Assembly: GCF_001310955.1 (NCBI RefSeq)
Contig: NZ_BAZX01000002.1
Coordinates: 186,001-250,000, forward strand
DNA from: Marinifilum fragile JCM 15579
GTDB taxonomy: Bacteria > Bacteroidota > Bacteroidia > Bacteroidales > Marinifilaceae
Length of the DNA stretch: 64,000 nt
Reading direction: 5' to 3'
Each line of letters starts with the position of its first letter. Positions within the stretch are counted from its first letter, which is position 1. Position numbers and translations under genes: made by a program. The notes beneath the pieces were generated by a model that had not been told where the DNA came from, did not search any database, and was given only the letters and a program-made list of their open reading frames with translations. This document shows positions 11,739 to 44,228 of this stretch, one piece after another.

Positions 11739-12416
11739 ATGAGCATAGATCTTATATTCATGCTTACGCGGGATGATAAAACAGTACAAGATGCCAGAAA
11801 ATATGTGAAAGAAATTGTGGCAGAGGGAGTAAAACATATCGGTTTTAAAGATATGGGATTGCCTTTAGAAGAGCTAAAAGAGTTAACACATGATTTGAAG
11901 CAGGAAGGAGCTACAGTTTATTTGGAAGTGGTAAGTTTAGATTCGGAGAGCGAAATCAACTCAGCAAAGGTGGCAATGGATTTAAATGTAGATTATCTGT
12001 TAGGAGGAACAAGACCTGAACTGATTGCTCCTTTGGTGAAAGATCATCCACTAAAATATTATCCTTTTGTGGGTCGAGTTGAAGATCATCCAAGTATTTT
12101 GAAGGGGACAATTGCTGAAATTGCTGCTCAAGCTGAAGAAATAACCAGTATTGATGGGGTAGATGGGTTGGATTTATTGGCTTATCGCCATTTAGAAGAA
12201 GATATCCCTAGTTTGATTACGGATGTATGTAAATCATCAAAAAAACCGATCATTGTAGCCGGTAGCATTGACAGTGTAGAAAGGATAGAAACGGTTAAGG
12301 CAAGCAATGCTGCTGCTTTTACTGTAGGGACAGCTGCATTTGAACAAGCATTCTCTGCCAATAAGCCAGGAATAGGTGGACAGGTTGAAAGTATATTAAA
12401 AGCTTGTTCGATCTAG
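11739..12416 (+). CDS. TIM-barrel protein with phosphate-binding site (HisA/ribulose-phosphate-binding type)
   Basis: A 225-residue protein with alternating helix-strand pattern of a (beta/alpha)8 barrel. The C-terminal PIIVAGSIDSVERIETVKAS and AAFTVGTAAFE resemble the phosphate-grip loops of HisA/HisF, NanE and KGPDC-type barrels. Earlier strands carry VKHIGFKDMG and VYLEVVSLDS. The substrate cannot be named. It is monocistronic, with its own promoter at 11659-11687 and a ~45-base leader. The next 500 bases downstream contain two candidate small RNAs rather than genes. An assignment to a pathway would be a guess. Confidence 0.7.
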   Translation: MSIDLIFMLTRDDKTVQDARKYVKEIVAEGVKHIGFKDMGLPLEELKELTHDLKQEGATVYLEVVSLDSESEINSAKVAMDLNVDYLLGGTRPELIAPLVKDHPLKYYPFVGRVEDHPSILKGTIAEIAAQAEEITSIDGVDGLDLLAYRHLEEDIPSLITDVCKSSKKPIIVAGSIDSVERIETVKASNAAAFTVGTAAFEQAFSANKPGIGGQVESILKACSI

Positions 12417-12503
12417 AGCTTAAAAACGATATGTATTTAAAATTTTTACATTCTTTAACACATCTTCTCATTTATTAACTCAAATGTTAAATACATTTGT
12501 TAC

Positions 12504-12590
12504 AGACAAAGAGATAGATTAGGTTTTTTCATAGAATAATAGATTAGGATTTTAAATAAAATGCCCGGCTTACCAGCCGGGTTTTTTATT
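12504..12590 (+). ncRNA. Candidate small RNA, copy A
   Basis: A perfect -7 box TACATTTG (12492-12499), preceded by CATTTA about 20 bases upstream, is followed by ~85 bases without an ORF. They end in a strong terminator: CCCGGCT-TACC-AGCCGGG (12564-12581) plus six T. The interior shares GTTTTTTCATAGAAT and a following AGATT(T)AGG block with the minus-strand element at 43.99-44.10 kb, so the two are homologous. Transcription start is inferred from the box. It could instead be a long 3' region of the gene ending at 12416, but the internal promoter argues for an independent RNA. Confidence 0.5.
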
Positions 12591-12675
12591 TTATATGCAT
12601 TGCAAAAAAAAAGAGTTTAAGTTTCTTTAACTTCCTTTGAGCCCATTTAACGATTAATTGAGATAGTTTTACAAT

Positions 12676-12764
12676 AGAGAAAACAAACAGGAAGTTTCTC
12701 TAAGATTTAGGTTAGTAAATAGTGGTTAGTAAAAGAAAGCTTGGGGTGGTGCCTAAGCTTTTTT
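12676..12764 (+). ncRNA. Candidate small RNA, copy B
   Basis: A -7-like box TAGTTTTA (12664-12671) with CATTTA 18-19 bases upstream is followed by ~90 bases ending in AAGCTTGGG-GTGGTG-CCTAAGCTT (12737-12760) plus T-run. Core 12703-12729 (27 bases, starting AGATTTAGGTTAG and ending AATAGTGGTTAG) is identical to the core of copy C at 44029-44055 on the other strand. No open frame is present. It lies in tandem behind copy A. Confidence 0.5.
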
Positions 12765-12917
12765 CGTTAGTTGCAAGTACTTGTAAATACTACAATACGC
12801 ACGGAATTTAGTTTGGGATAAAATTTATTTTAAACAAAATATGGAATAAAGTGAACATATTTTGTAGATTTGTATATCAATTAATAGTTTAATCTTTATT
12901 AATATAAAATCCCAACT

Positions 12918-13364
12918 ATGAAAAAATCAATAGTTATATTATTTGTGCTGATTGGATTTTCATTGAGTGCACAGAATACAAAACTTGAGGTATTGAAAGA
13001 ATTTGTTGCAGGTTCTATTAGTTTTAATGATGAATTTGCAGATTTAGGACAGCCAATTGTAACCATTAATAAATTAGCAGAAAAACAGGCTGATAAAACA
13101 ATTGACTTAACCAAAGACAATATCAAAGAAACTTTAGAGCTTGCAAAAACTTACAAAACCTGTATTATTACGGTGGGTGTACATACCATTGTGAAAATTA
13201 CTGATTTTGAAAATTGCAGTCCAAGTGGTGCTTGGGGAGCAAGTATGCCAATGGGAAAAGGATATGTTCAGAAAGCTGGTGTTTTGAACGAAAAGAATGA
13301 CTATATCAAAAACATTATTGGTCGTCCAGGAACTCAGGAAAGAAAAGTTTTTCTCTTTAAATAA
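12918..13364 (+). CDS. Hypothetical secreted protein, 148 aa
   Basis: A signal peptide (MKKSIVILFVLIGFSLSAQN) is followed by ~130 residues with no recognised domain. Two Cys (YKTCIITVG and FENCSPSGAW) could form a disulphide, and SPSGAWGASMPMGKGYVQ is Gly-rich and loop-like. A -7 box TAGATTTG (12865-12872) precedes the gene. It is convergent with the PorP gene and shares a bidirectional terminator with it. Probably periplasmic. Confidence 0.7.
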   Translation: MKKSIVILFVLIGFSLSAQNTKLEVLKEFVAGSISFNDEFADLGQPIVTINKLAEKQADKTIDLTKDNIKETLELAKTYKTCIITVGVHTIVKITDFENCSPSGAWGASMPMGKGYVQKAGVLNEKNDYIKNIIGRPGTQERKVFLFK

Positions 13365-35408: not shown

Positions 35409-36581
35409 ATGAAAAGAAACATTGTTGCTGTAGGAATGTTGTTGGCTTTTTCAGCCGCACTTTGGAGTTGTTCAAGTTCTGATGATAAAACACCAGAACA
35501 GAATCAATCATTAGAACAGAATCTTACTTCAGAGACTCAATCATTAGCAGTTGCTGTTGATGAAATTACTGCCTCAGAAGGATATGGACTGATCACCATG
35601 AGTGATAATACAAAAGAAGGAACAGAAGAAGAATCGGACGAAAGATTTTCATATGGTCACACCATTACTCTTGAAGATATTAAAGGTGTTTATGAGTATA
35701 TTCTTCCTGTACCAGATGAAGGAACTAGTACTAAAATGGGTAATGGTTATTGGAATTCAGCATTTGAAAGAGTGGGAGATAGTGATTTTTTCGTAATCAA
35801 TTTACCTCAGGAAAAGGCTACAAGACCTTGGAAACTGTATGTAGGGGAAGATGGTGATTCAGAATTAGATAATGATTTTAATATTACCGCTTCACAATAC
35901 AACTCTTCAACAGTAATGAATAGCGAAGGGTTTGAGTTTGACTACTTATTAGATGCTGATATTACAATTGAAGAAGAAGCTGCGGGAGCAATTTTTGTTG
36001 ATTGGAACATGAACATGTCAACAAATATGAGCTGGGATTATGAATCAGAGTTTAGCTTCCCTAATGGATATTCTGTGGGTCATGAGTTTCAGTTTGGCGA
36101 TACAACCGAATTCGCTTACAATTTGAAGAAAGATGGTGAAGTATTATTCATGGAAGAAGTGGAATATATTCGTTCTACAGAAGAAGCTGAAGCAGAATAC
36201 GAATATGCTCTTACAATAGGCAATATAAAGATTGTGAAGAATTCTTCAAGTGAAGAATACATGGTATACCGTAATGGTGAATTAGAAGAGGATGCTGTAA
36301 TTACTGTTCTTCATAATGAAGATACAACTACAGGCGAGGGAGAAGAAGATGAATCAGATCATGCATTCTGTAGAGGAGGACTTGACATCAAAATTACTTT
36401 CACAAATGAAGATGGTACTCAAGAGGAAGTAATACTTTCAGAATTAATCGGTGAGGAAACTCTTGAACAACTTGACGAGATCTTTAGCTCGATGCACGAT
36501 ATGTACTTTGTAAACAAATTGGTTGACAGAGTAGCAAAGGAAGCTTACGATATTAATATGGGTGAAGGAGCTGGAGAATAA
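35409..36581 (+). CDS. Acidic lipoprotein of unknown function, 390 aa
   Basis: Signal peptide with lipobox: MKRNIVAVGMLLAFSAALWS followed by CSSSDDK, so the mature protein is a lipidated, strongly acidic protein. Many Glu-rich stretches (NTKEGTEEESDE, TTGEGEEDESDH) and beta-rich segments (FEFDYLLDADITIEEEAAGA, FVDWNMNMSTNMSWDYESEF). No catalytic motif and no named family recognised. The SSDDK after Cys, with acidic residues close to the lipidated Cys, resembles the Bacteroidetes lipoprotein surface-export signal. Monocistronic with its own terminator. Confidence 0.75.
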   Translation: MKRNIVAVGMLLAFSAALWSCSSSDDKTPEQNQSLEQNLTSETQSLAVAVDEITASEGYGLITMSDNTKEGTEEESDERFSYGHTITLEDIKGVYEYILPVPDEGTSTKMGNGYWNSAFERVGDSDFFVINLPQEKATRPWKLYVGEDGDSELDNDFNITASQYNSSTVMNSEGFEFDYLLDADITIEEEAAGAIFVDWNMNMSTNMSWDYESEFSFPNGYSVGHEFQFGDTTEFAYNLKKDGEVLFMEEVEYIRSTEEAEAEYEYALTIGNIKIVKNSSSEEYMVYRNGELEEDAVITVLHNEDTTTGEGEEDESDHAFCRGGLDIKITFTNEDGTQEEVILSELIGEETLEQLDEIFSSMHDMYFVNKLVDRVAKEAYDINMGEGAGE

Positions 36582-43909: not shown

Positions 43910-43989
43910 ATTTTAGTTTGTTTATTTAAATTCATTACAAATAAAGATTAAAAAGTCTTTTTTTCAAAATTTGAACTTGAATTTATCCC

Positions 43990-44086
43990 AAAGAAAAATC
44001 CCGAACCTGTTCAGCCCGGGATTTTCTTCTAACCACTATTTACTAACCTAAATCTAATTCTATGAAAAAACTTCTCTGTTTTGTAT
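43990..44086 (-). ncRNA. Candidate small RNA, copy C
   Basis: On the minus strand a perfect -7 box TACATTTG (44098-44091), with CATTTA 18-19 bases upstream, is followed by ~95 bases ending in the terminator AAAATCCCG...CGGGATTTT (44025-43995) and a T-run. It contains GTTTTTTCATAGAAT, shared with copy A, and the 27-base core at 44055-44029 identical to copy B. The opposite strand has a 17-codon ATG frame only. The minus-strand gene at 44229-44615 could run into it, but the internal promoter suggests an independent transcript. Confidence 0.55.
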
Positions 44087-44228
44087 ATTACAAATGTAGG
44101 GTAGAAATGTGCTAAATGGTTTAAACAAAAGTTAATGAACCTTAAAAGTAAAGATGATTAGAACAATTTTTTGAAAATAGATACGAATGATTGAATCAGT
44201 AGCTGACAAAAGCATAGGATAGCTTGGC

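Follow-up and report, generated by a model that had tools for sequence, protein, structure and literature searches.

Three short elements in the window (the whole 64,000-nucleotide stretch of DNA that was analyzed), designated copies A, B, and C, are most plausibly members of a FopS-like family of trans-acting small RNAs (sRNAs), which are predicted to block translation of susC-like mRNAs by pairing with their start codons. We give this reading a probability of about 0.77; the mechanism is proposed from analogy with FopS and from computed pairing. At the level of sequence, a typical gene of the family has a promoter to itself, a seed of ~30 nt that is conserved, and an intrinsic terminator whose stem covaries, and copies often lie in tandem.

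Copies A and B sit in the intergenic stretch 12417-12917, between plus-strand open reading frames (ORFs) at 11739-12416 and 12918-13364, and neither overlaps any ORF of at least 80 amino acids (aa). A sequence-only reading had described two consecutive plus-strand promoter-to-terminator units without ORFs, and these are located as claimed, with some changes to their parts. In each, a promoter-like element is followed by ~90 nt that contain no ORF and by a hairpin with a run of T's behind it. The perfect -7 box of copy A stands, whereas its terminator, described as a 7-bp GC stem, has 8 pairs, 6 of which are G-C (12563-12582). The AAGCTT-based terminator of copy B is visible in the fold, although it is absent from the terminator-scan list, but in the proposed box, TAGTTTTA, the G that closes TAnnTTTG is missing. 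The CATTTA reported before both boxes is present but forms only the border of a longer fixed motif, TTAAC-N15-TTARC-N12-TAnnTTTG, which is common to the copies. The terminator scan (651 bases) found 2 sites versus 0.2 +/- 0.4 in shuffles, both on the A hairpin, one per strand. A sigma-70-type promoter scan of the A/B region was at the level of shuffles (4 versus 3.2, no excess), since Bacteroidota promoters are not expected to match such a model. Fold z-scores are -3.3 for A, -2.6 for C, and -1.9 for B; the minimum-energy folds of A and C pair part of the seed, while centroid folds keep most of it free.

The sequence sharing with the minus-strand element, here copy C, was also confirmed: A and C have GTTTTTTCATAGAAT in common, and B and C are identical over exactly 27 nt, a 27-mer that recurs in other copies. 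At the level of sequence, the family resemblance of A, B, and C is not chance. BLASTN with copy C was run on the 4.7-Mb assembly (94% complete, 75 contigs) and returned C and six more copies at E <= 3e-14, followed by B (1.8e-7) and A, the latter at only 0.0145. A covariance model, R1, built from 12 aligned copies of this genome, finds 13 places at E <= 1e-4, at eight loci; as 12 of these are the model's own input sequences, a single place, the third copy on contig C15 (C15:49168), is new. Contig C2 carries five copies (A, B, C, and a tandem pair), C13 a pair, C15 a trio, and C22, C24, and C17 one each, with a weak fourteenth match (27.6 bits) beside the C22 copy. No ORF of at least 80 aa overlaps any of the 13. 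The family is made up of at least 13 predicted sRNA genes in this genome, with promoter, seed, and terminator. The proposal of a multicopy trans-acting sRNA family holds as a prediction: the 13 copies are spread over eight places, they have a promoter type in common, their terminators covary, and their seed is conserved while the flanks diverge and matches the starts of other genes.

Table 1. Positions in the window of copies A, B, and C and their parts
Feature	Position	Strand	Basis or remark
Copy A, whole unit	12455-12594	+	Promoter, seed, terminator
Copy A promoter, TTAAC-N15-TTAAC-N12-TACATTTG	12455-12499; -7 box 12492-12499	+	Exact pattern match; kept in 4/5 genus genomes, own included
Copy A sRNA (predicted; 5' end placed from the box)	12505-12594	+	R1 match 12517-12593, 59.7 bits (model built with A included)
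Copy A seed, complement of leader + AUGAAAAAA	12523-12549	+	Alignment A1 of family copies
Copy A intrinsic terminator	12563-12588	+	Terminator scan and fold
Copy B, whole unit	12627-12768	+	Divergent copy
Copy B promoter with a single mismatch (box TAGTTTTA without its last G)	12627-12671	+	Pattern match
Copy B sRNA (predicted), without UUUUCAU anti-AUG part	12677-12768	+	R1 match 12688-12769, 62.5 bits (B is in the model)
Copy B 27-nt core identical to C and other copies	12703-12729	+	Sequence comparison
Copy B terminator hairpin, AAGCTT-based	12733-12765	+	Fold; not in terminator-scan list
Copy C, whole unit	44135-43989	-	Typical full family copy
Copy C promoter, TTAAC-N15-TTAGC-N12-TACATTTG	44091-44135	-	Exact match
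Copy C sRNA (predicted)	43989-44085	-	R1 match 43989-44077, 99.8 bits (model built with C included); 33.7 bits when aligned to FopS

No Rfam family matches at the gathering threshold in the whole 64-kb window. A permissive search of the A/B region gave 28 weak matches, mostly to unrelated families, among which FopS, at 22.1 bits, stood out only because of the copies elsewhere. The Rfam FopS model (RF04319; gathering cut-off, 56 bits) aligns colinearly with the family over its whole length (model positions 1-71), with the same seed near the 5' end, and the Rfam/Infernal check that had been proposed in this way brought out a kinship below cut-off. As none of the 24 own-genome matches exceeds the cut-off (best, 36.3 bits), we call the family FopS-like and do not file it under RF04319. 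Among the best 10 of these matches, nine are family copies and the tenth is antisense to an apparent ORF start.

FopS has been described as a group of paralogous sRNAs that are highly conserved within Bacteroidaceae, bind the protein RbpB, which counteracts them, and repress a susC mRNA; FopS-10 of Bacteroides thetaiotaomicron pairs across the start codon and blocks translation (PMC11697453). The family resembles FopS in its seed, which matches end to end (GUKUUUUUCAU-G-AUUAGAUUU-AGGUUA-UAAA), in the order of 5' seed and then terminator, in its intrinsic 3' terminator hairpin (covarying over 91 distinct rows), in its TAnnTTTG box, and in a target site that is predicted to cover susC-like start codons. 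Copy number is also alike, 13 here versus the 14 given for B. thetaiotaomicron (PMC11697453). Unlike in gut FopS, where only a few nucleotides separate box and seed and the model starts at the seed, this gap is ~20-25 nt in 47 copies of the present family and therefore represents a 5' extension relative to FopS; a small hairpin is possible in this stretch, at <= -2 kcal/mol, in 20 of the 47. Also unlike FopS are the TTAAC/TTARC promoter, the dense arrays, and the lack of an RRM_1 match in the own genome.

A related RNA, GibS (RF04182), has a seed region R1 (not to be confused with our model) in common with FopS (PMC11697453), but differs from the family copies in being longer, with a 142-position model, and in having a second seed, as described in PMC7366714. 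Identity with GibS was rejected: in the search that gave the full-length FopS alignment, its only match reached 32.8 bits against a cut-off of 115 and ran antisense to the copy, and copy A scores 18.7 bits with the GibS model. Multicopy paralogous sRNAs that share targets are described also for Listeria, as LhrC1-7 (PMC11697453). Nothing related on small RNAs of Marinifilaceae was found in the literature searched for both terms together.

The seed has the reverse complement CTAACCTAAATCTAATTCTATGAAAAAAC, which corresponds to a susC-type start region, a leader ending in CTAACCTAAATCTAATTCT followed by AUGAAAAAA. Pairing was computed with the C-type seed for 36 susC genes, which represent 57 HMM rows (30 genes had loci already and 6 were fetched; the remaining rows, pieces of those genes or weaker matches, were left out). 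Background starts came from twenty 20-kb stretches and the 64-kb window, as ORFs of at least 100 aa with guessed start codons, and include at least one susC gene (L064 = L269), so that the comparison errs on the cautious side. The median pairing energy is -13.95 kcal/mol for the 36 susC starts versus -9.0 kcal/mol for 319 other starts (p 3.3e-12), with 18 of the 36 at -14 kcal/mol or better and the weakest at -4.7, and none of 100 shuffled seeds equals the real seed on susC starts. Over genes at large, 23 starts reach -14 kcal/mol versus 14.1 +/- 5.4 with shuffled seeds; with so slight an excess, we propose only susC-like starts as targets.

These comparisons bear on the alternative that fares best, although we consider it unlikely, namely that the sRNAs are real but that their seed serves mainly other mRNAs or acts as a decoy for another sRNA or an RNA-binding protein, the susC match being a by-product of A/T-rich start composition. 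Start regions are A-rich, MKK starts are common among exported proteins, and the excess is smaller without the anti-AUG part: when just the leader part is used, the susC mean is reached by 17 of 500 shuffles and the susC-minus-background difference by 2 of 500. When the anti-AUG part is held fixed and the rest shuffled, however, none of 300 seeds reaches the real susC mean, and susC starts outperform those of 100 background genes with ATGAAA-like starts (p 1.8e-6). The related FopS RNAs, moreover, repress a susC mRNA in experiments reported in PMC11697453. Good matches outside susC, which would suit the alternative, include a Sir2-like gene, an aquaporin-like gene, and secreted proteins, all named by eye. 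Among other weak BLASTN or RF04319 matches, 16 loci were fetched; in 5 of them the match lies at the start of an ORF, which by eye is SusD-like, Sir2-like, secreted, or unnamed, and in the other 11 it lies elsewhere. Further RF04319 matches on C34, C16, and C20 are at apparent ORF starts, one of them aquaporin-like (by eye), and two weak R1 matches, C19:67222 and C27:50298, are antisense to susC start codons. Within the window, the ORF at 35409-36581, with the start MKRNIVAVGMLLAFSAALWSCSSSDDK, is the fourth best seed match of the 319 sampled genes, at -16.9 kcal/mol.

That the elements are instead 5' leaders, or leader remnants, of protein genes, acting in cis and read on either strand, was raised in the sequence-only reading itself and is very improbable. 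The seed does complement a leader plus AUGAAAAAA, and each of A, B, and C is followed by an ORF on its own strand. A seed that is antisense to leader-plus-AUG, however, leads us to read that sequence as the target, and 7 of the 13 copies, at 4 of the 8 places, have their nearest downstream ORF of at least 80 aa on the other strand. Promoter and terminator are both on the sRNA strand, and one seed is repeated in arrays that contain as many as six units, with a spacing of 172 to about 510 bp. The units end, furthermore, in terminators whose stems differ in sequence between copies yet keep pairing. In 91 distinct rows, pairing is kept in 98.3% of cells, two-sided changes occur at 9 of 10 pairs, and the covariation score is 0.754 versus a maximum of 0.21 when the partners are slid, in an alignment that was fitted to the R1 structure and so leans toward it. 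It is hardly tenable that the elements are a repeat scattered through the genome, of mobile or REP-like DNA, and do not function as RNA, for although many copies are near identical and in tandem, and B shows decay, the seed and terminator are kept while the flanks diverge, the terminator pairing is preserved by two-sided changes, the promoter is kept across genera, and no transposase-like protein is seen among the nearest ORFs (by eye, first 45 residues).

Conservation within the genus shows the same pattern of a kept core. For the C24 copy, aligned from four species, 66 of the 67 columns from seed to terminator are invariant, while unchanged columns number 39/45 in the promoter, 67/78 in the intergenic stretch before the copy, 152/200 in the upstream coding sequence, and 130/200 downstream. 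Four of the 5 genus genomes, counting the own one, have copy A at the same place. Copy B is present in three, one of which (G332) has it damaged; it is missing in G331, and the G330 stretch did not align. Copy B is probably decaying or re-purposed.

The shared promoter is nearly confined to the family. Its pattern has 11 exact matches in the own genome, 10 of which are at family copies and 1 at C28:58475; with one mismatch allowed, copy B, the third C15 copy, and one C8 site join, giving 14 in total, versus 2 for a backward control at the same setting. Thus 10 of the 13 copies are exact to the full pattern including the sigma-ABfr -7 box TAnnTTTG, C15:49168 has its mismatch elsewhere, and B and the C17 copy are without the box; a clear TAnnTTTG is missing in the C17 copy (L018) and in a doubtful copy on C3 (L021). 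Among upstream regions in family loci, 74 of 93 distinct ones match exactly, 84 of 93 match with at most two mismatches, and 9 have more (3 were too short), whereas in the shuffle control 1 of 113 matches with two mismatches and none with fewer. These upstream regions show that the promoter is kept across genera. The direct repeat, 20 bp apart and beside the -7 box, suggests that a regulator may bind there. At C28:58475-58604 (the end of L088, near the contig end), the family promoter precedes a different short unit, with a possible hairpin by eye and without the anti-AUG seed.

RRM_1, the fold of the FopS partner RbpB, has no match at E <= 0.001 in the own genome, while a control genome, Bacteroides ihuae, was positive, and none in any of the 5 genus genomes. 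R1 copies number 4-16 each in 23 of 56 Marinifilaceae genomes, own included, and none of these 23 (genera g1, g181, g189-g192, all with at least 4 copies) has an RRM_1 match, although two are 63% and 80% complete, so that the absence is weaker there. The 28 Marinifilaceae genomes with RRM_1 have 0-2 weak R1 matches each, and five genomes have neither RRM_1 nor more than 0-2 R1 matches. This exclusion between arrays and RRM_1 may be one evolutionary split within the Marinifilaceae, and we therefore attach no p-value to it. Across the order, RRM_1 is present in 34 and absent in 24 of 58 strong-FopS genomes; an RbpB partner is thus not a strict mark of the FopS family, and FopS and RRM_1 show no association (odds ratio 0.63, p 0.16).

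In 294 genomes of the order, RF04319 has a match at E <= 0.01 in 84 and over the cut-off in 58. R1 matches occur in 58 of the 294, weak outside the own genome (~37-49 bits); those in the wider order were left out of the copy counts, as some may be chance or target antisense. Among the matches listed, the FopS-type seed pattern occurs in Bacteroidaceae, Prevotellaceae, Muribaculaceae, Dysgonamonadaceae, Parabacteroides, Barnesiella, Odoribacter, Ancylomarina, and others. From a pattern scan of named genomes, 80 of at least 119 seed loci were classified. Among the 85 sites in these 80 loci, a terminator is present at 72, a TAnnTTTG box at 77, and an antisense ORF of at least 60 aa at 4. The arrays in relatives run head to tail, often at a spacing of 184-215 bp, and tandem sites are found outside Marinifilaceae too, as in Dysgonomonas L185, with four within 1.8 kb.

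Several features of individual groups were also observed. In genus g181 (L292-L296), the stretch from promoter to seed of FopS-like copies apparently contains two additional hairpins, the first of which in some copies includes another UUUUUCAU (by eye), and the Ancylomarina copy L171 resembles one of this genus (by eye). L166, a metagenome-assembled contig titled Clostridium sp., has two FopS sites with box and terminator and is probably a binning error. Upstream of 42 of 121 gut-type FopS sites (L150-L268, among the matches listed) is an inverted repeat, TGTT-N2..6-AACA, versus 1.6 expected from shuffles; it lies 12-90 bases before the seed and is a possible operator.

The FopS-type seed pattern was also seen in 49 viral contigs (L342-L390), many with a hairpin-like stretch after it, and in 27 of the 49 there is no TAnnTTTG box just upstream of the seed. 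In one contig (L343), the pattern begins 6 nt behind a tRNA-Arg gene. The RF04319 cut-off was passed by 3 of the 9 viral loci scanned (L344, L371, and L362). Some seed-bearing viral contigs may include host DNA. One phage with FopS has been noted before (PMC11697453).

If the FopS-like reading is correct, a regulator acting on the shared promoter would cause many copies to be transcribed together, giving a large dose of one seed. By pairing across start codons, the RNAs would block the translation of susC-like mRNAs and of some others that encode exported proteins, as FopS-10 does. In this lineage the block would occur without RbpB, an action proposed because no RRM_1 protein was found. More tentatively, and at somewhat less than even odds, the Bacteroidales branch lacking RRM_1 may have an RbpB-independent layer of control, in which arrays of near-identical anti-susC RNAs under one little-shared promoter type would shut off many outer-membrane transporters at once; phages, which carry variants of this seed that in part lack the promoter context of the host, would perhaps close the same surface proteins during infection.

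RNAs of the FopS kind are already known; compared with them, the family is notable for the arrays, the shared promoter, and the finding of no RRM_1. The FopS seed logic in other Bacteroidales families, expanded to arrays where no RRM_1 was found, would provide a natural test of RbpB-free function, and the promoter signature makes the regulator of these RNAs searchable. The family may also offer a simple rule, by which a seed that mirrors the susC leader plus AUG would mean translation control in bacteria without Shine-Dalgarno sites.
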